Source: a virus
Strand: one strand, 5' to 3'
DNA: 20,494 nt
IMG/VR virus record: IMGVR_UViG_3300009026_000081
Location: 1-20,494 of that record
Of the stretch, positions 3,626-20,494 are shown piece by piece. The position numbers and the translations under genes were made by a program. Positions within the stretch are counted from its first letter, which is position 1. The number at the start of each line of letters is the position of its first letter. Under the pieces are notes generated by a model. The model had not been told where the DNA came from. It worked only from the letters and a program-made list of their open reading frames with translations, and made no database searches.

Positions 3626-4176
3626 TGAATGGAAGTAGCTTACTCTTATATATTGATAACGATAAACTTTTATATTCAAAATCTCACAGTTTTTCGTTTA
3701 GTGGGGATACGGTTGACATCTCTACCAAGTTATCAGATATATCTGCAATTGAGGAAAGCTACTATTGGGAATCTGCAAACTTCAATTGGGAACAACTTGA
3801 TGAAACTTGGGAAGGTATAGCTAGATCAAAATCAGTTAGTGGTTGGAGTGAAAGTATGCCTAGTTTTCGTTCAGCAAACTTTTCTTCTGAAGGATTATAT
3901 GTTGTAGATGGAATAACCCAAACTTGGGACACAACAGATTATTATTGGGAGTTGTTTAATGTAGATTGGGAAGATGGTGCAATTGAACCAAATCCAACAA
4001 CTACTTTAGATAATTTAGTAATTACCGGTGAGGAAGTTAAATTTGAAATATTAGATAGTAATTTAAATTCTGTATTTGTTGGTAGATGCTATGTGGCTAA
4101 CTATGAATTAGTGGCTGATAATGAGGGAGCAATGTTTTATAACGCTGATTTTAGCGTAACAAGTGGGGTAGCATAA
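3625..4176 (+). CDS. Tail tube protein paralogue with tryptophan-heptad insertions
   Basis: This 183-residue protein opens with NGSSLLLYI and has DTVDISTK at 29-35. These pair closely with NGTSLTLYV and DTPDISTK in the following gene, a TP901-1-type tail tube protein. It therefore appears to be a diverged duplicate. It differs by two insertions in which tryptophans repeat every seven residues: W48, W55, W62 (bases 3766-3816) and W101, W108, W115 (bases 3925-3975), mostly followed by E or D. The S-M-P-S-F-R-S-A-N-F-S segment between them matches the M-K-S-F-S-I-D-F-S segment of the paralogue. It could be a minor tube, tail-initiator or decorated tube subunit. The start overlaps the terminator gene's stop (TAATG). 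Confidence 0.7.
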   Translation: MNGSSLLLYIDNDKLLYSKSHSFSFSGDTVDISTKLSDISAIEESYYWESANFNWEQLDETWEGIARSKSVSGWSESMPSFRSANFSSEGLYVVDGITQTWDTTDYYWELFNVDWEDGAIEPNPTTTLDNLVITGEEVKFEILDSNLNSVFVGRCYVANYELVADNEGAMFYNADFSVTSGVA

Positions 4177-4693: not shown

Positions 4694-5083
4694 ATGGCAA
4701 AAAACAAACACAGAGGTACTTGTATCATAGATATAGGTGGCAAAAAAAGAGGATTAGTATTTAATATGAATACCTATGCAATATTTTGTGAAGGTATGGA
4801 TATTAACCTAACTGAGATGGATGTAGTATTTTCTGACAGAAGACAAGCAAAGGCTTTGTGTTGGTTATTTTATTCCGGATGTTTTGCTTATGATGAAAAG
4901 AATGGTAAATCTATAGATTACGATATACATGATTTTTATGATTGGGCAATGAGTGTAACTCCGGAAGATACTAATAAGATTATGGAAACCATGACGGGTT
5001 CTCAAGAGTTATCTAATTCATCTAACAATGGAATGTCTAGAAATGTTGTTGAATCAACCAAAGATGATATAAAAAAAAATTAG
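4694..5083 (+). CDS. Tail assembly chaperone, short (zero-frame) product
   Basis: The 129-residue protein lies between the tube gene and the tape measure, where nearly all siphophages encode the G-type tail chaperone that coats the tape measure during tube polymerisation. Its compact N-terminal part (I-D-I-G-G-K-K-R-G-L-V-F-N-M-N-T-Y) and helical middle (RRQAKALCWLFYSG) fit that role. The reading frame ends in A9 followed by T-TAG. The heptamer A-AAA-AAA (5071-5077) is in the right phase for a -1 slip, after which the downstream frame continues for another 105 residues. Most ribosomes should stop at 5083 and give this short form. Confidence 0.8.
   Translation: MAKNKHRGTCIIDIGGKKRGLVFNMNTYAIFCEGMDINLTEMDVVFSDRRQAKALCWLFYSGCFAYDEKNGKSIDYDIHDFYDWAMSVTPEDTNKIMETMTGSQELSNSSNNGMSRNVVESTKDDIKKN
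5071..5083 (+). promoter_or_regulatory. Programmed -1 ribosomal frameshift site
   Basis: Nine adenines (5071-5079) contain the slippery heptamer A-AAA-AAA in the frame of the upstream gene; the zero-frame stop TAG follows one codon later at 5081. Slipping back one base after codon 5075-5077 moves ribosomes into the frame that is open through 5394. The downstream half has no ATG of its own near the junction and only a TTG at 5122. Placement is as in the lambda G/GT and other tail chaperones. Confidence 0.85.
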
Positions 5084-5413: not shown

Positions 5414-7579
5414 ATGACGGAAAAGAATAGAATAGTTTATGAAACCTTGATGAAGGTTAAAAACTTTACAAAGGGTGTATCAAAAGTACAGGCCGGATTT
5501 AAGAAGTTATCAAACTTAGCTAGTGCGTTTGCAACGGGTTTTATGGGTTCTCAATTACTAACAATGTTTCAAGATTGGGCAAAAGAAGCCGGTAAAGTAG
5601 AAACCGTTAATAGAAGTTTTTCTAGATCATTTGGTGTAATGGCATCTGAAACTGAAGCTAGTTTAATTAAAATGTCTACTATTTTAAAAAGAAATACTTC
5701 CGAAATGAAAAAGGGGGCAGTTTCTTTTCAAGCATTTTTTACGGGATTGGGTTTTGCTAGTAAAGCCTCATCACAAATGTCCGTTGATTTACAGAAAATG
5801 TCTGTTGATTTAGCCTCATTTTTTGGTATAGCTGATGCAAATGCACAAAAAAGATTTTTGGCAGCTTTAGCGGGTTCTCCGGAAGTTCTTGATCAGTTTG
5901 GTATAAACCTAAAACAAGCTGCTTTACAAGTTGAATTATACAATATGGGTATAAAGACAACTGTACAAAATACAAGTGAAACCGTTAAAACAACCGCTAG
6001 ATTAGCTATTATAATGCGTTCGATGTCATCTGCCGGAATATTGGGGGATGCTTTTAGATCAATGGATACATATGCGGGAAAAGTTAAAGCATTGGATTCA
6101 CAATTTCTTGAGTTTCAACAAAATATGGGTAATGTTGTTATTCCCGTTTTAATTAAGGGAATGGAGACGTTAAGCGGATTGTTTACTATAATTGATAATA
6201 TATTAAAACTTCGCGATCTATCTGATTTCTTAGCGGGTAATGCTATTGAAGCAGCAGAAATTAGAAAATATAGAGAGGAACTTGAAAAAATAAAAGAGAC
6301 TCAAACAATACTTAATTTTCTTGCTGAAAATAATACTAGATTCAGAAACGCTGATAAAGTTTTAAATGATGAAGAGTATGCTCTTTTTGTTTCATTGGTT
6401 ACAAAAGAAAAAGAATTAAAAAAACTTTTAGAAGAAGGTAATTTAGAGAGAACAGATGAGGTTGAATTAAAAAAAGAACATTTATATTATTCAAATGAGA
6501 TTCAAAAATTTCAAGTAAGGATTAATGAACAAATTAAAGAACAAGTAAAACAACAAGAAGAATTAAATAGACTAAAACAAATAGAAGCGGATGGTTTTAC
6601 TTCAGAAATAGAAGCAATTAAAGAAAAATTTGATACTCAAAAAAGGCATCAAAAATTATTTGAAAAAGATTCTTCTGAATTAGAAACTCAAAAACAACTT
6701 CAACAAGAACTTTTAGTTATATACGGTAAACAATTAAAAGCGGGTGTATTAACTACAGAAGAATATAAAAAACAAACTGATGAATTATTAGCCATTAATA
6801 CTGCATTAATGACTGTAAATACTACAGAATTTAGAAGCATAGAAAGAGAAAGAAGAAGAAAAGCTACTAAGGATTTTGATTTTGTTGGAGCGGGTGATAA
6901 AATCGGAAGTCTTAATCAGAGAAATTTAGATTTACTTGGGACTTCTGTTATTTCCGATCAATCTGCTGCCATGGCAGATGCTTTACTAGATAAAGATAAA
7001 TTTATAAATAGAATAAAGAATACATTAAGTAATATAAAAATTTCACTTATTGATGTACTTAAAGGTAGTTTTCAAGAAGATATGAGAATGATGCAAATTT
7101 CATTAGAGCAAATAGCAATGCCATTTATTAATGCATCAATGCAATTATTTGATCAAATGTTAACTCCTCCGGATGCTACATTAAGTAAGGAAGAACAAGC
7201 AGAAAAAACTAAAGGAGCATTTGCCGGAATTATAGTTGGTTTGGGGCAAGCTATGATGGCAATTGGACAAGGAATGGTTCTTACGGCTATTGGATTAGAA
7301 ACATTAAAAAAAGAACCTATAGTTGGTGGTGCTATTGGTGTAGCAATGATTGGTATTGGGGCGGGTTTAGTTAAATCGGGAAAAGGTAAGCTACAAAATT
7401 TAAAGAATTCAGCACATGCAAGAGATGCCGGAGGAACTGCAAATTCCGGTAGTGGTGTAGGAGGATTTGGAAGTATGATGAATGCAATACAAGGAGAACA
7501 AGTTTTTAGATTAGCCGGTAATGATTTAGTAACGGCTATTAATAGAACAAATACATTTCAAGGATCAATAGGAGGATAA
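5414..7579 (+). CDS. Tape measure protein
   Basis: The 721-residue protein is the largest helical protein of the tail module and follows the chaperone directly. Residues ~1-60 contain a KVKNFTKGVSKVQAGFKKLS helix and a small hydrophobic stretch. A conserved tape-measure core follows (about 65-240), with RSFGVMASETEASLIKMST, F-F-G-I-A and GSPEVLDQFGI. The middle (about 280-480) is charged and coiled-coil-like. Residues ~601-654 (bases 7214-7375) form a glycine-rich hydrophobic block (IIVGLGQAMMAIGQGMVL, then IGVAMIGIGAGLV), the part thought to help DNA cross the inner membrane in this family. By the usual ~0.15 nm per residue rule the tail would be about 100 nm long. TAAATTTG just upstream (5402-5409) looks like a -7 box but lacks a -33 partner. 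Confidence 0.9.
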   Translation: MTEKNRIVYETLMKVKNFTKGVSKVQAGFKKLSNLASAFATGFMGSQLLTMFQDWAKEAGKVETVNRSFSRSFGVMASETEASLIKMSTILKRNTSEMKKGAVSFQAFFTGLGFASKASSQMSVDLQKMSVDLASFFGIADANAQKRFLAALAGSPEVLDQFGINLKQAALQVELYNMGIKTTVQNTSETVKTTARLAIIMRSMSSAGILGDAFRSMDTYAGKVKALDSQFLEFQQNMGNVVIPVLIKGMETLSGLFTIIDNILKLRDLSDFLAGNAIEAAEIRKYREELEKIKETQTILNFLAENNTRFRNADKVLNDEEYALFVSLVTKEKELKKLLEEGNLERTDEVELKKEHLYYSNEIQKFQVRINEQIKEQVKQQEELNRLKQIEADGFTSEIEAIKEKFDTQKRHQKLFEKDSSELETQKQLQQELLVIYGKQLKAGVLTTEEYKKQTDELLAINTALMTVNTTEFRSIERERRRKATKDFDFVGAGDKIGSLNQRNLDLLGTSVISDQSAAMADALLDKDKFINRIKNTLSNIKISLIDVLKGSFQEDMRMMQISLEQIAMPFINASMQLFDQMLTPPDATLSKEEQAEKTKGAFAGIIVGLGQAMMAIGQGMVLTAIGLETLKKEPIVGGAIGVAMIGIGAGLVKSGKGKLQNLKNSAHARDAGGTANSGSGVGGFGSMMNAIQGEQVFRLAGNDLVTAINRTNTFQGSIGG

Positions 7580-7582
7580 AAT

Positions 7583-10500
7583 ATGGCTATATATCAAAAA
7601 AAGTACACATTAGAGTTTGATGATATTATTAAGGATGAGTTTAATAATTATAAACTTGAAATATTTAAGAAATATAAAACAGAAAATTTAAGCACTTCTG
7701 ATAATGTTTATATAACGGCTACTGCTAATACTGCTATTACCAAGGGTGATCCGATTTTTATAGAATCAAATGGAAATGCGGTTCGTGCCAAAGCATCTAC
7801 TAGTTCCTTAATGCCCGCGATAGGCATAGCATACGAAGATATACCTTATGGAAATTCGGGACAAATATTAATTAGTGGTTATGTTAATGATTTTTTGATT
7901 TCAGTAGCCACAAATGCATATGTAGGTGAAAACGGAGGCTTAACTAATACTACAACGGGACTTACTCAAGTTCAGTTATTAGGAGTACAATCTACTGTTA
8001 GTAAATTTATTTTATTTGATCAAGAAGTAACATTAAAAGGAACGGGAAATCCTATTAAACTTAATTATAATTTAGTTGATGATGATATGTTATCTCCATT
8101 TAGATCAAGTTATTTAGATATTTCTTTTTATAAAGAAAGTTTTTCTGATGATTATTCAGAATTATTTGCAGCAGAAAATGATGCATTTAAAGTAACACTT
8201 AAAAAAAATAATGTTTTATTTTGGCAAGGATGGATTGGATCACAATTATTTTCAGAACCATTTGCATCTCCTCCTTATCCCATATCATTAAGAGCATATG
8301 ACGGATTGCATTTATTAAAAAATAAACCTTATTTTGATGATCCGGAAGTATTTCAAGCAACATCTAATTTATTTAATGATAGATATGGTTACCACAATAT
8401 AGTAGATGTTGTAGAAAAATGTATTTATAATACGAGCGTTTTAAATGACGTTTTTTATTGTATAAATGTTAGTAATTCAGAAAACTCAGATGTTCCAACT
8501 TTATTTCCCGTAAGATCAAGAATTCATCATCAAACATTTTTAAAAGGTGAATCAAACTCCATGAATATGGAAGAGGTTTTGCAGATGGTTTTAAGATCAT
8601 TAGGTGCAACAATTTATCAAAGAGATGGTGATTGGTGTGTAATTAAAATTTCTGATTTTACTCTTTCCCCAATTCCCGTTCTTATCAAAAGAAGTAATTG
8701 GATTACCGGTAGTACAACAGAAACAAATTACATAACAAATACACAAACATACACTAGTTCTGATGACGTATCAAAAAACATAAATCTATTTCAAGTAGAT
8801 TCGGGATCAACCATGACTATTCAGTATCCATTAAAAGAAGTTACTATAGAGCATGAATTTGATCACAATATGGTGACTAGTACAACTATTGATTCTGTAA
8901 GAGATTTAGGCGCGGATGATCCATCGGGTACATATTTATTTACTGAATGGGAAACAAGCGGAACTAACATACAAGAGGCGGTTGTATTGAGAAAAAATGA
9001 AACACTAAGTGAGGCAAAAAAGTTACCAAAATCATTTATTGAAGCAGATTTAGGTGCTAGTGGTGTAAATATTGATTATTGTGATTCATATTTATATTAC
9101 CCCGTTTCTCATACTTGTACTGTTGATAGTTCAAAAATAACCGGATTAAGTTCAGAAGTTAATGCTCGTCCATTAGGTAGAAGTTTAGTTGATGATGAAG
9201 CGTTTTCATTAATTTTTAGTCCAAAATTAAGATATTTTGATGGCACTACAAAGGAGTATGGTTTTGGTACAGTTGAAACTTTTGAAACATCTATGATTAA
9301 TAATAAAATATTAAGAATGAACGCAGAAGCCTTTGATCCGGCTGAAGGGCAACCTTTAATTATTGGTGGAATAGGTGTTAGAATTAATCAAAATTCTAGT
9401 TCAACTTCATGGAGAATTACTATAACACAAAATAAAGATACATTTTTTACAAGTCAAGTTTATACTACACCCGCAAACACCTCATCATATAACGATTATT
9501 TTTTTGGAGGAGGCTCAACTACAAACGTAACTTGGCTTGAATCATTTACTTTAACTCAAGCTGATTATGAGGTATCTTTTGAACAAATTACGGGAAACCC
9601 AATTGCATCTTTTGTGTGGTACGTTCAAGGATATAGAGTGCCTACTCCTACATTTCGATATGAATTTCAGCAATGGGGGAGTAACATTGATTTTTCTAAT
9701 ACTTCTGAATCGGATATGACAACAGACTTTCAATACGTTCTTAGAAATGATTCAAGCAACCCTATAACAATTACACCTAGAGAAGGAGGGAATATAGGAA
9801 CAACACCGCCTAATGTGGGAGAAAACGATTTAGGAGCAGATAATTTTAGAAAAACATGGGATTGCACTATTCCCGCTCCGGATTATTTAAATTCAACCGG
9901 ATTTGCTGCTAGTCAAATTAGGGGTAAAGGTATTAATCAATGGACAAAATACAGTATAACCGCATCTCAAAATTGGAATTCTAATATATCTAATTTATAT
10001 TTATCTATGAATATATTTGGTTCAGCTAAAGCATTTGATGCCTCCGGTATTCAAATTGATTTTCCGGAAGATGCCTCCGGTAATCCAATAACCACTAATC
10101 CACGTTATACTGACACCTATGATGTTAGTTATTCTGATGTAAAACTATATCCTCTAGTAACTCAAAACAAATTTACACCAAGAGTGCAAGAGTATAAAAT
10201 AACTCAATCAGCTAATTTTAGCAGTAAAATAACAAAAAAAGTAAAAATAGGTTCGGGTTTATTTAATGTTGGTTCTAATAGATATATAACATTTACATCA
10301 GAAAGTGGTTCTACCGCAAAAAAAAGTTGGGATACTTTTCGTGATCGTAGGGGATTATCTGCAACGGGGGTTGAGAATGCCACATTGCAACATTTAGTGG
10401 GTGCTTGTTACATGGAGTTATATAGAATTTCAGTTAGAAGATTAGATACAACTCATTATGGAAATTACAAGTATGGTGATAAATTAATGCCAATAGTTAA

Positions 10501-11545: not shown

Positions 11546-12297
11546 TGTTTAAAATAAAGAAGGTTATACCGGATTTATCAAACGAATTATACCATTCAGT
11601 AGGAGCGGGGATTATATCCTCCTCCTTTTTGAAGGGTGTATATAAACATAGCGTAAGAAAAGCTAAGATACCTTTAGAGCCAAATGATGCTTTAACGTTT
11701 GGTTCTCAATTTCATGACATATGTGAATTGGGTAGTAAAAAGTTTCAGAGCAAATACTCTGTCATTCCCGAAGAGAATAGTAATAAAAGAACTAAGGCTT
11801 ATAAAGATTTTATCAAGGACAACAAAAATGCCATTACAAAGGCTGATAGTGTTAGAATAAATAAAATGTTTGATAACTTAAATAGTAATGAATTTTATCG
11901 AAGCCTAGAGGATAATTATGATGTTCACGCAGAGCATTCATTTTATGCAGAAAGAGATGGTTTAGATTTTAGGATACGTCCGGACAAGCATTACTCACAT
12001 GAGGGTGAAATATTATATGTTTGTGATTTTAAAACTACTTCTGATTGCAGTACTTTTAAATATGACATAACTAAATATTCTTATGATTTACAAGCAGTTT
12101 TCTATTCGGATGTACTCGGTATTAATCCGTCTGATTTTTACTTTATCGCTATTGAAAAAACGTACCCGTACACATGCCAAGTGTTTGGATTATCGGATGA
12201 TTCAATACGAAGAGGTAGAACCAAAATGGATATAGCCATAGGTAAAATTAAAAGAGGTGAACAATCTCTTGGTTACGAATTAGTAGAGAGAGTATAA
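11545..12297 (+). CDS. PD-(D/E)XK exonuclease, RecE C-terminal/DUF3799-like
   Basis: The 250-residue protein carries the ordered motifs of the RecE/Exo VIII-like nuclease family: S-F-L-K at 27-30, G-x-x-x-H with H57 and E61 (GSQFHDICE), E136, R-P-D at 145-147, D161-F-K163-T-T, and Y180-x-x-Q183-x-x-x-Y187. D147, D161 and K163 form the PD-(D/E)XK centre; the Q/Y helix binds DNA. These enzymes degrade the 5' strand of duplex ends to give 3' single strands for an annealase. It lies one small gene downstream of ERF and overlaps both neighbours, so co-expression is likely. Confident for the nuclease class. Confidence 0.88.
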   Translation: MFKIKKVIPDLSNELYHSVGAGIISSSFLKGVYKHSVRKAKIPLEPNDALTFGSQFHDICELGSKKFQSKYSVIPEENSNKRTKAYKDFIKDNKNAITKADSVRINKMFDNLNSNEFYRSLEDNYDVHAEHSFYAERDGLDFRIRPDKHYSHEGEILYVCDFKTTSDCSTFKYDITKYSYDLQAVFYSDVLGINPSDFYFIAIEKTYPYTCQVFGLSDDSIRRGRTKMDIAIGKIKRGEQSLGYELVERV

Positions 12298-12911
12298 TGT
12301 TATTAAAAGATTATAAAAAAGTATTACCAAACGATGTGTACATATTTGGTAGTGGCTCATCTTTGGACTTATATGCAGAAGATTATTGGGATGGTAAGTT
12401 TACTGTTGGAGTAAATAAAAGCTATCAGTTTGATAAGCATTTAGATGCAGTTGTATTGTCTCATGGGACTTATATAGAAGACGTAGAGCAAAATTACTCT
12501 CATTTAGACTTGTTTGTATCTAGATACGATTCAACGCACGTTAGATACGGCTTAAATAAGTTTAACGATGCAATAACATATGTTTATGATCATTACGAAA
12601 ACACCGGATTTGATATTATACCAAAAATAGGGTTAATAGATAAGCCGGAAGATAATAAAGTTATTACATGTGGTGATACAGTATGTAGAGCGATTGGTGT
12701 ATTTGTATATCTTGGAGCAAAAAATATATGGCTAGTAGGATGTGATGGTGTAGGTAATCCGGAAAACAAAATAAACAGAAAGGATTATTACCCTAAAAAC
12801 GTAAACATTAATGCTACCGTAGGACATGCTACAAGAAGTATGAAAAGTAAAATATATCTAAGAGATAATCTAAAAAAGTACGGGATAAATATTAAATTTT
12901 TAAAACCATGA
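12297..12911 (+). CDS. DUF115/MptE-like or sialyltransferase-like Rossmann protein
   Basis: The 204-residue protein begins with a nucleotide-binding-type strand and loop V-Y-I-F-G-S-G-S-S-L (14-23), then V-G-V-N-K-S (37-42) and D-A-V-V-L-S-H-G (50-57). The second half has C-G-D-T-V-C-R-A-I and Y-L-G-A-K-N-I-W-L-V-G-C-D-G (125-151). The pairing of a GxGxSL loop with 'G-(N/D)-T ... A-x-Y-L-G-A-K-x-I-x-L-V-G-x-D' is shared by DUF115 proteins (flagellin glycosylation, MptE-like) and GT42 sialyltransferases. A sugar-nucleotide-dependent transferase is the likely class; the acceptor (surface glycan, virion protein or DNA) cannot be told. It overlaps both adjacent genes by one and four bases. Confidence 0.6.
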   Translation: MLLKDYKKVLPNDVYIFGSGSSLDLYAEDYWDGKFTVGVNKSYQFDKHLDAVVLSHGTYIEDVEQNYSHLDLFVSRYDSTHVRYGLNKFNDAITYVYDHYENTGFDIIPKIGLIDKPEDNKVITCGDTVCRAIGVFVYLGAKNIWLVGCDGVGNPENKINRKDYYPKNVNINATVGHATRSMKSKIYLRDNLKKYGINIKFLKP

Positions 12912-16350: not shown

Positions 16351-17380
16351 ATCAAAACAAAGTGGGGTTTCTTATCATAGACTAATTAAGCCTTTTGAGA
16401 AACTAAAAGAAAAGGGTTGTTCTGTTGACATTGTTAAAACTTATCACGAGCAAGAAATAAATAAATCTGATTACGATTATTTAGTTTTCAATAGAGGACT
16501 AGGATATAACTATGAAGATTTGGCTATAATTGATGAGTTTAAGAATGAAGGGGTTAAGATTATCATGGACATAGATGATTATTGGGAACTTCCGGAACAT
16601 CATCCAATTAAGTGGAGGGAGGATATTGATTACGATATGTGGAGGGGAAGTATAGTAGCTAATTTAGCTTTGGCTGATTACATATGGACTTCAACGGAAT
16701 GGCTTAAATCTAAAATAGAAAAACTTGTACCTAATAAGCCAATTGCAATAGCTAGGAATGCAGTAGATTATTATGATGAAGATCAATGGAGTAAGGCACA
16801 GAGTAAATCTAAACACAATGATAAAGTTGTTGTTGGGTATGCCGGTAGCACAACACATTACAAGGATTTAGATATACTTAAATCACCTATAAGAAGAATA
16901 AACTCTAATAAGATTTTAAAAAATAAAACAGTATTTGGTTTGTTTGGTGTTGATCATATGTCAAATTACGGAATAAAAGTTTGGCAAGAGCAAATAAATA
17001 TATTTACAACCAATGGTAGAAACACTAACTATCAATTAGAATCCGGTAGATCAGTTTATCAATATGCATCTTTTTATGATGAGATGGACATATCAATAGC
17101 ATCTGTATTGGATAATGATTTTAACAAATGCAAAAGTGAACTAAAGATTATAGAAGCCGGAGCAAAATATAAACCATTCATTGGTACAGATATAATCACA
17201 TACAGTAGAACTAACGCTAACATAGATTTGTGTACTACAGAGGATGATTGGGTAGAATCAATAAAGGAATTGGTTTTAGATAAAACATTAAGAACAGAAC
17301 TAGGGAAAGAGTTAGGTGAATACGTTCGGGATGAATATATAATTGATAAAGAAAACGAAATTAGATTAAGTATTTTATGA
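16328..17380 (+). CDS. GT-B fold glycosyltransferase (GT4-like)
   Basis: The 350-residue protein starts on the first Rossmann strand (MRFLVII), which fixes the start even though it overlaps the small membrane ORF. N-terminal domain features are S-x-Y-H-R-L-I (15-20), I-I-M-D-I-D-D-Y-W-E (78-87) and W-T-S-T-E-W-L (120-126). The C-terminal nucleotide-binding domain starts at V-V-V-G-Y-A-G-S (167-174) and has the family motif K-S-E-L-K-I-I-E276-A-G-A (269-279). GT4 enzymes are retaining transferases using nucleotide sugars. Substrate unknown: host surface glycan, virion protein or modified DNA bases are all possible. The gene's stop overlaps the next ATG by four bases. Confidence 0.8.
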   Translation: MRFLVIIKSKQSGVSYHRLIKPFEKLKEKGCSVDIVKTYHEQEINKSDYDYLVFNRGLGYNYEDLAIIDEFKNEGVKIIMDIDDYWELPEHHPIKWREDIDYDMWRGSIVANLALADYIWTSTEWLKSKIEKLVPNKPIAIARNAVDYYDEDQWSKAQSKSKHNDKVVVGYAGSTTHYKDLDILKSPIRRINSNKILKNKTVFGLFGVDHMSNYGIKVWQEQINIFTTNGRNTNYQLESGRSVYQYASFYDEMDISIASVLDNDFNKCKSELKIIEAGAKYKPFIGTDIITYSRTNANIDLCTTEDDWVESIKELVLDKTLRTELGKELGEYVRDEYIIDKENEIRLSIL

Positions 17381-17745
17381 ACCTAGGAGAATACTCTGAA
17401 TCATTATTTACTACAATATGCATAGGAAAGGGATACACCGTTTCTAAGCCATTTTATTACGAGACAAGGTATGATTTAGTCGTTGATGTAGATAATGTCT
17501 TACAGAGGGTTCAAGTAAAGTCTACGGATCATGTGCGTCCGAAAGACAATCAATGTCAAGTTAGAGTAAATTATAACAAAGAGGAGGTAGATTGGTTTGC
17601 TATTTATATAAACAAAACCAATGATTGGTATGTATTACCAATAGATGTTGTTGAAGATATTAAGCAATTCTCAATAAAATTAGGTTATAAGTCAAAGTAC
17701 GATATTTTTAAAAATAATTTTGGATTTGTCAGACATGGTTTTTAG
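17377..17745 (+). CDS. PD-(D/E)XK nuclease, small (resolvase or intron-endonuclease-like)
   Basis: The 122-residue protein has the short-form PD-(D/E)XK layout: G-E-x-x-E (E5, E8) in the first helix, K-G-Y-T-V, Y-D33-L-V-V-D as the acidic strand, R-V-Q46-V-K48-S-T as the E/Q-x-K strand, and a W-Y-V-L-P ending motif at 84-88. This matches the group of phage/cyanobacterial nucleases related to I-Ssp6803I (PDDEXK_11) and archaeal-type Holliday-junction resolvases. With an annealase, exonuclease and helicase in the same operon, junction resolution is a reasonable role; a homing or degradative nuclease is the alternative. Confidence 0.75.
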   Translation: MNLGEYSESLFTTICIGKGYTVSKPFYYETRYDLVVDVDNVLQRVQVKSTDHVRPKDNQCQVRVNYNKEEVDWFAIYINKTNDWYVLPIDVVEDIKQFSIKLGYKSKYDIFKNNFGFVRHGF

Positions 17746-18120: not shown

Positions 18121-18347
18121 AAAATAAAAAACACAAACAAAACATGTACGAAATGTTATTGAGTCATGTACAAGCTAAAAAAACTAAGGCTTTATTAACG
18201 TTAGATTTACTATGTGATAATCCCGCCGGTATTGGCGATCATTCAACAGATGATTTTTACAATAACGCTATAGATGCTATAGAAAAGTTAACTGATGCTC
18301 ATGATCAATTAATGACTATAAAAATTTACTTTGATGTCGATAGTTAA
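18117..18347 (+). CDS. Conserved small phage protein ('NPxGIGxHS' type), unknown
   Basis: This 76-residue helical protein contains L-L-C-D-N-P-A-G-I-G-D-H-S-T (32-45), followed by an amphipathic helix A-I-D-A-I-E-K-L-T-D-A-H-D-Q-L. From memory, short proteins with an 'L-x-x-N-P-x-G-I-G-(E/D)-H-S' motif occur in many myoviruses and cyanophages, with no known function. ATGA overlap links it to the zinc-finger gene. Confidence 0.7.
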   Translation: MKNKKHKQNMYEMLLSHVQAKKTKALLTLDLLCDNPAGIGDHSTDDFYNNAIDAIEKLTDAHDQLMTIKIYFDVDS

Positions 18348-19258: not shown

Positions 19259-19289
19259 TTTGTTTTTTGAATGTGTTTAAATATACTTG
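19259..19289 (+). promoter_or_regulatory. Bacteroidota-type promoter
   Basis: TTTG at 19259-19262, 19 bases, then TATACTTG at 19282-19289 (one mismatch from TAnnTTTG). Spacing is ideal for a -33/-7 promoter. The start of transcription would fall near 19295, about 60 bases before the 126-aa gene, and the transcript would run through the hammerhead ribozyme into the DUF932 gene. Confidence 0.55.
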
Positions 19290-19356: not shown

Positions 19357-19737
19357 ATGAAAAATACAACTGGAACACCTACAAAAACACAATTATTTAA
19401 TCAGTTAAAAGATAGAAATCTAAGATTTTCATTTATTAAAATGGGTATTATTAATAGTATTAAAGTTGCATATTATGCAGAAACCCTAAACGATTTTAAA
19501 TGTAATTTAATCCATGAAATGGACAGATTAAAGCATATAAAAGAATTGGATAACAAGGGATGTTATGAAATATCAGAACACAATTGCAATAAACGTTATG
19601 TTTATTATTTGGGTGAAAAACAATATTATAGATCATCCAAAGTAATACATCAAATTAAAAGCCTTTATTTAATGGCTAATTACATGGGTTATAATATATT
19701 ACCCCGTATTGGCGGGCATGACTTAATAGCTAAATAA
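19357..19737 (+). CDS. Unknown protein upstream of the ribozyme
   Basis: The 126-residue protein is basic and largely helical: an N-terminal part T-K-T-Q-L-F-N-Q-L-K-D-R, an aromatic centre Y-Y-A-E-T-L-N-D-F-K, a beta-like segment C-N-K-R-Y-V-Y-Y-L-G-E-K and an end with L-M-A-N-Y-M-G-Y-N-I-L-P-R. I do not recognise the family. It is the first gene after the iteron region and its promoter, so a DNA-binding initiator or regulator of that region is an attractive but unproven idea. It holds the only CTGG in the window (19370-19373). Confidence 0.65.
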   Translation: MKNTTGTPTKTQLFNQLKDRNLRFSFIKMGIINSIKVAYYAETLNDFKCNLIHEMDRLKHIKELDNKGCYEISEHNCNKRYVYYLGEKQYYRSSKVIHQIKSLYLMANYMGYNILPRIGGHDLIAK

Positions 19738-19822
19738 ATAGAGGTTAACTGAGGAGCGGATTATTTCCCGAAACAAGGTGAAAGCCTTGTCTTAATCAAA
19801 TTTTAACATAAATAAAAATAAG
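19738..19822 (+). other. Leader of DUF932 gene
   Basis: This 85-nt intergenic spacer holds the hammerhead ribozyme (19743-19797) and then an A/T-rich segment ATAAATAAAAATAAG ahead of the ATG, with no Shine-Dalgarno. No separate promoter consensus is seen inside it, so the DUF932 message probably derives from the promoter at 19259-19289. Confidence 0.6.
19743..19797 (+). ncRNA. Type I hammerhead self-cleaving ribozyme
   Basis: All conserved parts occur in order. Stem I 5' arm GGTTAA (19743-19748); core CTGAGGA (19749-19755, consensus CUGANGA); stem II G56 with C69 and GGA/TCC (19758-19760 with 19766-19768) around loop TTATT, with C57 bulged; GAAA (19770-19773). In stem III, A73 pairs with T90 and CAAGG with CCTTG, with a T·G pair capped by a GAAA tetraloop. 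C91 is the cleavage base in a GUC triplet. Stem I 3' arm TTAATC (19792-19797) pairs with GGTTAA through one G·U. Ends meet in stem I, so it is type I. Cleavage after 19791 would leave a 5'-OH RNA beginning 31 bases before the DUF932 ATG. A weak outer stem (AAAT/ATTT) could create the internal loop used for tertiary contact. Confidence 0.85.
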
Positions 19823-20494
19823 ATGAATAATTTAAATAATGACACATTCAATACATTAGAGAATACCGGTACAAATTACACGGTTAACAAATTGCCATTA
19901 TACGCAATGAATGAAAAGACGTTTGAATCTATGCAAACCAATTCATTTGGTATTTTTCGCAATGATTCCGGCGCATGGTTAGGCACAGTTGGCGAAAGAT
20001 ACACCACTATTCAAAACAAAGATCTAGTAGAGATAATAGTTAAGATTAAAAATGAATTTGGTGGTAAGATTCGCGGGGGATCCTTTAAGAATGGCGCAAA
20101 GGTTTACTATCAAAATAGTTTGCCGGATCACGTGATTAATGAGCATAAGATTAAAAGATTTATAACGTGTCTTAATTCGCATGATGGCAGTGGATCGGTT
20201 TCGTTTGGCGCATCTAATACAGTTGTCATTTGTGACAATCAATTTCATGCAATGTCTAAAGAGTTGGACACGTTTAGACACACAAGCAATGCAGAAGCGC
20301 GCTTGAAATTAGCCGTTGAAAACTTTAAACTCCAACTAGAACGAGAAAAAAACATAATTAATACATTTGACAAAATGAATGAGGTAAACCTAGATAAAAA
20401 CATTGTGTCTATGGTTATTGAAAATATGTTCAAAGTGAAACGTGATGATGATATCAAAAACATATCTACACGTAAACAGAATCAAATGAAAACC
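19823..20494 (+). CDS. DUF932 family phage protein, 3'-truncated by window edge
   Basis: The ATG at 19823 follows an A-rich leader; 224 codons are visible and the frame is still open at the end. Conserved DUF932 parts are visible: G-T-V-G-E-R-Y-T-T-I-Q-N-K-D (about 58-71), F-I-T-C-L-N-S-H-D-G-S-G-S-V-S-F-G (about 113-129), then V-V-I-C-D-N-Q-F and R-H-T-S-N-A-E-A-R. The family is widespread in phages and plasmids and is of unknown function, often in early or accessory regions. Here its mRNA leader contains the hammerhead ribozyme, 25 bases upstream. Upstream co-transcription with the 126-aa gene is likely. Confidence 0.85.
   Translation, partial: MNNLNNDTFNTLENTGTNYTVNKLPLYAMNEKTFESMQTNSFGIFRNDSGAWLGTVGERYTTIQNKDLVEIIVKIKNEFGGKIRGGSFKNGAKVYYQNSLPDHVINEHKIKRFITCLNSHDGSGSVSFGASNTVVICDNQFHAMSKELDTFRHTSNAEARLKLAVENFKLQLEREKNIINTFDKMNEVNLDKNIVSMVIENMFKVKRDDDIKNISTRKQNQMKT

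Follow-up and report, generated by a model that had tools for sequence, protein, structure and literature searches.

The window analysed here is a virus record of 20,494 nucleotides (20.5 kb), whose helicase is nearest to those of Tenacibaculum and Flavobacterium phages; because of this affinity and of promoter matches of the Bacteroidota type, the host of the phage is probably a member of the Bacteroidota. Close to the end of the window, a predicted promoter is followed on the same strand by an open reading frame (ORF) of 126 amino acids and then by a gene of the DUF932 family, and between the two genes lies a type I hammerhead ribozyme (Table 1). The initial annotation had described these genes as co-oriented members of one predicted transcript from 19259, and the ORF, the assignment of the downstream gene to DUF932 and the Bacteroidota-type promoter pattern were all confirmed. 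The 126-aa product has no Pfam match; its homologues occupy the same position in two related loci (L004 and L007) and are encoded by the first of two inserted genes in three others (L005, L008 and L009). In close relatives with a readable 3' end, the DUF932 protein is 297 aa long and the end of its gene overlaps a second hammerhead. About 2 kb upstream of the element, positions 17377-17745 encode a PD-(D/E)XK endonuclease-like protein (PF11645, E 2.1e-19).

Table 1. Features of the DUF932 junction in the window, and second hammerheads in related loci (prefixed by locus)
Feature	Position	Strand	Composition or pairing	Basis
Predicted Bacteroidota-type promoter	19259-19289	+	TTTG 19259-19262, 19-nt spacer, TATACTTG 19282-19289	Pattern match
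Upstream ORF, 126 aa, co-oriented	19357-19737	+	Stop TAA 19735-19737, 5 nt before stem I	ORF list
Type I hammerhead ribozyme, whole element	19743-19797	+		RF00163 match at identical coordinates; covariance model R1 match 19742-19798
Stem I, 5' strand GGUUAA	19743-19748	+	6 bp with UUAAUC 19792-19797	Sequence
Core CUGAGGA (C3-A9)	19749-19755	+		Sequence
Stem-loop II	19756-19769	+	G19756-C19769, bulged C19757, G19758-C19768, G19759-C19767, A19760-U19766, loop UUAUU	Sequence
Core GAAA	19770-19773	+	G12-A13-A14 19770-19772, A15.1 19773	Sequence; invariant in alignment A2
Stem-loop III, ACAAGGU-GAAA-GCCUUGU	19773-19790	+	19773-19779 with 19784-19790, 7 bp including A15.1-U16.1	Sequence; two-sided changes in relatives
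C17, predicted cleavage after this base	19791	+	GUC 19789-19791, U16.1 = 19790	Inferred from NUH rule
A/U-rich leader of DUF932 after predicted cut, 31 nt	19792-19822	+	Stem I 3' strand makes up nt 1-6	Sequence
DUF932 gene (PF06067), truncated by window end	19823-20494	+		E 6.3e-22
Second hammerhead overlapping DUF932 end	L001:5888-5946, L002:5870-5931, L003:5903-5962, L004:4396-4455, L006:5852-5910, L008:2565-2624			

The element contains the conserved hammerhead motifs in the order CUGANGA, GAAA and NUH, the last being the general rule for hammerhead cleavage sites, and stems of 6, 4 (with a bulge) and 7 bp join at this core; stem I is open-ended, as in the type I topology. The complete core and three stems reported by the initial annotation are thus all present where it had placed them. 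Its emphasis on a GNRA-capped stem III is only partly borne out: the window has a GAAA loop, closing over a U-G pair, but a GNRA cap is not conserved in relatives. The weakest helix is stem II, which is short (4 bp) and carries a bulged C. Minimum-energy folding of the element was no better than that of shuffled sequences, by a calculation whose energies score a three-way junction with tertiary contacts poorly. At the level of sequence, a type I hammerhead with an intact core on the plus strand of the window is confirmed, and cleavage by it is predicted.

That so complete a match was very unlikely to arise by chance proved correct. When 600 random sequences matched to the window in length and dinucleotide composition were searched on both strands, the expectation for a core whose stems I and III have 5 bp each was 0.0017 per window, and none of the 600 contained one with 6+6 bp; the window element has 6+7. 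Two other places in the window were considered and attributed to chance: a second pattern match at 8145, loose, with 4+4 bp and a 22-nt stem II and located within coding sequence, and a weak match to covariance model R1 at 18285-18315 (13.7 bits, E 1.7, or 0.275 in another run).

Comparison with covariance models, which had been suggested as a check, gave a divided answer. When a stretch of 201 bases was submitted to Rfam cmscan, RF00163 was returned at exactly the coordinates of the element, with 12.6 bits and E 4.1, below the family's gathering score of 34, which is a threshold set by curators and not a biochemical feature; a scan of the whole window against Rfam gave no match at the element. 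The other unambiguous hammerheads, about 35 in 15 related loci, nevertheless all miss the same cut-off (none was reported above threshold; the best RF00163 score in a subset of these loci was 27.2 bits), so that the low score reflects the Rfam model and not the element. The covariance model R1, trained on 44 phage hammerheads from contigs outside the DUF932 family of the window (among them L104, which precedes a DUF932 gene only 42% identical), assigned the window element 44.9 bits (E 7.6e-8, 130 kb searched). The alignment of the 44 hammerheads has 99.7% paired cells and 129 two-sided changes, as against 30 in shuffles. A pattern with one core base altered found no match in the viral contigs, as against at least 120 matches with the true core, many of them on contigs with several copies.

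A search of related phages for the same element before DUF932, and covariation among homologues, had been suggested as checks, and both were positive: in the set consisting of the window, its relatives and the second hammerhead that follows DUF932 in relatives, 98.3% of paired cells are complementary and 31 two-sided changes are present, as against 10.1 in shuffles, and compensatory changes are seen in all three stems among relatives. A hammerhead lies 32-33 nt before the DUF932 start in seven of nine close relatives. L154, a further relative, forms the structure with an entirely different but still complementary stem I (GACUUA/UAAGUC) and with a GUA site. On these grounds the initial reading of the region is supported: the leader of a phage DUF932 gene, predicted to be co-transcribed from 19259, contains a type I hammerhead whose predicted cut falls after 19791.

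A guide to what the ribozyme may do is its distribution at the DUF932 slot, compared over about ten loci. All close-family members that include the region have a common promoter, TTTG-N19-TATACTTG (TATAATTG in L002 and L153), with its following leader upstream of DUF932, whether or not genes have been inserted in between. In L002, L003 and L153 this leader goes directly into DUF932, no genes are inserted, and no hammerhead stands before DUF932; in the window and in L001, L004, L005, L006, L009 and L154, by contrast, at least one gene is inserted upstream and a hammerhead stands directly before DUF932. The inserted genes vary from phage to phage, while the hammerhead stays with DUF932. The empty junction of L153 reads TTAATC, the post-cleavage strand of stem I, which could be a remnant or an older leader; we do not rely on it. 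The window itself, ending inside DUF932, carries one copy, and relatives have copies both before and after the gene: DUF932 is flanked by two hammerheads in L001, L004, L006 and L008, and the cleavage triplet of the second is GUA in most cases and GUC in L008. In L001 the gene after the second hammerhead belongs to the GP88 family; genes of this family also follow hammerheads in other phages.

Similar arrangements are found before more distant DUF932 genes of other phages (L254, L256, L257 and L259-L261), which share about 41-57% identity with the family or with its relative L104 and where the hammerhead lies 24-29 nt before the start; in L259-L261 there is again a second hammerhead at the DUF932 end. 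In the wider family, none of the DUF932 genes with a recognisable promoter just upstream carries a hammerhead. Some 16 DUF932 loci at which no promoter match lies nearby also have no hammerhead, and the idea that every internal DUF932 gene requires one was therefore rejected. The ribozyme thus tracks the loss of the promoter-proximal position, and is not obligatory.

The DUF932 junction belongs to a much larger set of hammerheads in viral contigs, and the counts that follow hold among the matches listed. An ATG-led ORF begins within 70 nt after the cut in 187 of 198 hammerheads, 166 of the 187 at 18-35 nt, and the stop codon of an upstream ORF falls inside the element or at most 28 nt before the core in 183 of 201. 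Stem I is exactly 6 bp long in 188 of 204 relatives. Since the search pattern of this first sample contained part of stem I, the layout was measured again on a second sample, obtained with stem I left free: here 114 of 115 have a stem I of exactly 6 bp flanked by an A at either side, a nearby start is present in 98 of 112 and an abutting stop in 105 of 113. Intervals from one hammerhead to the next are tiled with ORFs in 76 of 81 cases, 35 of them containing a single ORF. In the two large contigs with most copies (82.7 kb and 51 kb), all copies lie within one region of 4-5 kb.

Relatives share a stem II of 4 bp closed by a pentaloop UNANU (U1 in 139 of 140, A3 in 124 of 140). An additional stem Ib beyond the flanking A's was considered and rejected, as the longest helix there (3.12 bp) is no longer than in shuffled pairings (3.31 bp). 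The UNANU loop, the A's flanking a 6-bp stem I and the lack of a helix beyond them together suggest that loop II may contact the end of stem I. The leaders of the class show A at -3 and -11/-12 among the matches listed, base preferences resembling the initiation signals of Flavobacterium johnsoniae, which have A at -3, -6, -12 and -13 (PMC6847099). Some second-sample leaders contain a Shine-Dalgarno-like sequence, so the junction layout probably extends past the phages of Bacteroidota. A common function of the downstream genes was rejected: the families of 148 proteins are scattered (GP88 4, DUF932 3, DUF6876 2, Tad2-like 1), and the element is therefore not bound to one function.

Bacterial genomes gave few exact-pattern matches, and those outside MAG bins with a genus name (Pedobacter, two Mucilaginibacter and Aquimarina) are all Bacteroidota. 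A Pedobacter contig also has a Pistol ribozyme (RF02679, 6625-6701 on the plus strand, 52.5 bits) about 370 nt upstream of its hammerhead at 7075-7124. Among cultured phages, clear matches were obtained in Flavobacterium phage elemoB (46.3 bits) and pelagiphage Jormungand (43.1 bits), and weaker ones in HTVC019P (26.8 bits) and Streptomyces phage Spernnie (28.6 bits). In elemoB the hammerhead occupies 11996-12055 and the annotated start of the gp69 coding sequence (12035-12331) falls within it, so this start codon is probably mis-annotated. The hammerheads of the pelagiphages Jormungand (4996-5058) and HTVC019P (2947-2986) lie upstream of a regulator-integrase region and, in a departure from the usual layout, are separated from the next annotated gene by more than 400 nt; the match in Spernnie (3996-4047) is GC-rich, hammerhead-like and near the start of a small gene.

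From these arrangements we consider it likely that the ribozyme cuts a polycistronic early message at the cistron junction and so gives DUF932 a short 5'-OH leader of its own, insulated from the inserted genes. Transcription starting at the 19259 promoter would read across the 126-aa gene and on into DUF932; the intergenic RNA would fold and cleave itself after C19791; the upstream message would still include its stop codon and would end in the hairpins of stem-loops II and III, bearing a 2',3'-cyclic phosphate; and the DUF932 message would begin with a 5'-OH and the 31-nt A/U-rich leader. DUF932 would then receive nearly the same leader with or without genes inserted after the promoter, and the element would most likely serve as a processing site and natural insulator, uncoupling DUF932 expression from whichever genes separate it from the promoter. 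Across the class, transcripts would be cut at each junction and each downstream gene would open its message with a short A-rich leader. Self-cleavage of the window element is expected from its family, and we infer the insulator function from gene arrangement. It counts against insulation that many DUF932 genes directly follow another gene without a hammerhead, which means that one is not required for internal genes; and ribosomes terminating at the nearby stop codon could hinder folding of the ribozyme.

An active ribozyme might instead mainly shape the upstream message, providing a defined, hairpin-protected 3' end after the stop codon much as a terminator would, with the downstream gene secondary. 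The stop codon within or beside the element in 183 of 201 hammerheads among the matches listed agrees with this, since after cleavage the upstream message would end in stem-loops II and III; but the distance to the downstream start is constrained as well, and at the DUF932 slot the upstream genes differ between phages whereas the ribozyme keeps its place beside DUF932, so that we regard such a role as unlikely, if worth keeping in view. The same position of the stop codon admits a sensor of translation, in which stem I and the core are masked by ribosomes that are completing the upstream gene, and the RNA is cut only when upstream translation is low. In many relatives the stop codon is indeed the UAA of stem I (64) or the UGA of CUGA (32, both among the matches listed), yet in the window it ends 5 nt before stem I, and genome compactness, together with the stop codons that chance to be contained in UUAA and CUGA, could by itself account for the overlap; gating of this kind seems to us rather improbable.

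The genes lying between two hammerheads, such as DUF932 in L001, L004, L006 and L008, raise another idea, namely that a linear RNA with a 5'-OH and a 2',3'-cyclic phosphate is released and then ligated to a circular mRNA. Such ends have the right chemistry for RtcB-type ligation. Twelve hammerhead-bearing phage records, several of them fragmentary, contain neither RtcB (PF01139) nor a PF09414 RNA ligase, although a host enzyme could act. Perreault et al. sought circular or spliced products and found none (PMC3088659), and we consider circular messages very unlikely. Scarcely credible, finally, is a chance or decayed hammerhead-like sequence that is inactive: an Rfam score far under the cut-off, the bulged stem II and the unremarkable folding energy would fit it, but the expectation is below 0.002 per window, and relatives show compensatory changes and conserve both core and position. 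Processing at the cistron junction to the benefit of DUF932 remains the reading that we prefer.

The role of hammerheads in phages has been a standing question since at least a survey in 2011, and the DUF932 slot offers a natural comparison, with the same promoter, the same downstream gene and a ribozyme only where genes are inserted; this contrast makes the idea of processing or insulation directly testable. More tentatively, and with somewhat less than even confidence, we propose that hammerheads of this layout form a rule-bound class of insulators that ease the insertion and exchange of accessory genes in phage operons without disturbing the downstream gene, common in phages of several hosts groupings and largely missed by RNA annotation. 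The rules, as part of that proposal, would be a 6-bp stem I flanked by A, a UNANU loop, an upstream stop in or beside the 5' strand and a start about 20-30 nt after the cut. Since the curated Rfam cut-off missed every such hammerhead in the loci tested, the number of hammerheads in phage genomes is probably underestimated.

Among known systems, Rfam Hammerhead_1 (RF00163) has the same topology (stem I open-ended, II and III closed), the same core and the same coordinates, with a score below gathering, whereas RAGATH-1-hammerhead (RF03152) has partial matches to the relatives L061 and L134 (at most 34.8 bits; gathering 56.3) and none to the window element, even at E 10. Insulators of the RiboJ type were engineered from plant satellite RNA and are placed after promoters, where the cut frees the leader from preceding sequence; the working principle proposed here is alike, while the window element is natural and lies between genes, and we claim no common origin. 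A structural variant, HHphage, is described 13 nt upstream of the start of a helicase gene in the archaeal haloviruses HF1 and HF2 (PMC3088659); both elements are thus just upstream of a phage gene start, but the window element has a canonical core and precedes DUF932, 31 nt from the start. The phage and prophage hammerheads of Perreault et al. (2011) occur in several copies per genome region, flank single genes or short blocks and were proposed to split long phage transcripts; tandem prophage copies cleave in vitro, and one triple array cleaves in E. coli (PMC3088659). The suggestion that the placement in the window might be undescribed is superseded by that report: hammerheads between phage genes and the transcript-splitting idea were already known, and the catalytic core and the copies between co-oriented phage genes are alike (PMC3088659). 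As far as the portion of that report covered here extends, it does not name the present locus, nor does it contain the fixed spacing of stop, ribozyme, leader and start, the 6-bp A-flanked stem I or the link to insertion at DUF932 (PMC3088659). Relative to the part of the literature covered, what the present analysis adds is the window locus itself, the link between the ribozyme and gene insertion at DUF932, and a measured layout of the junction.
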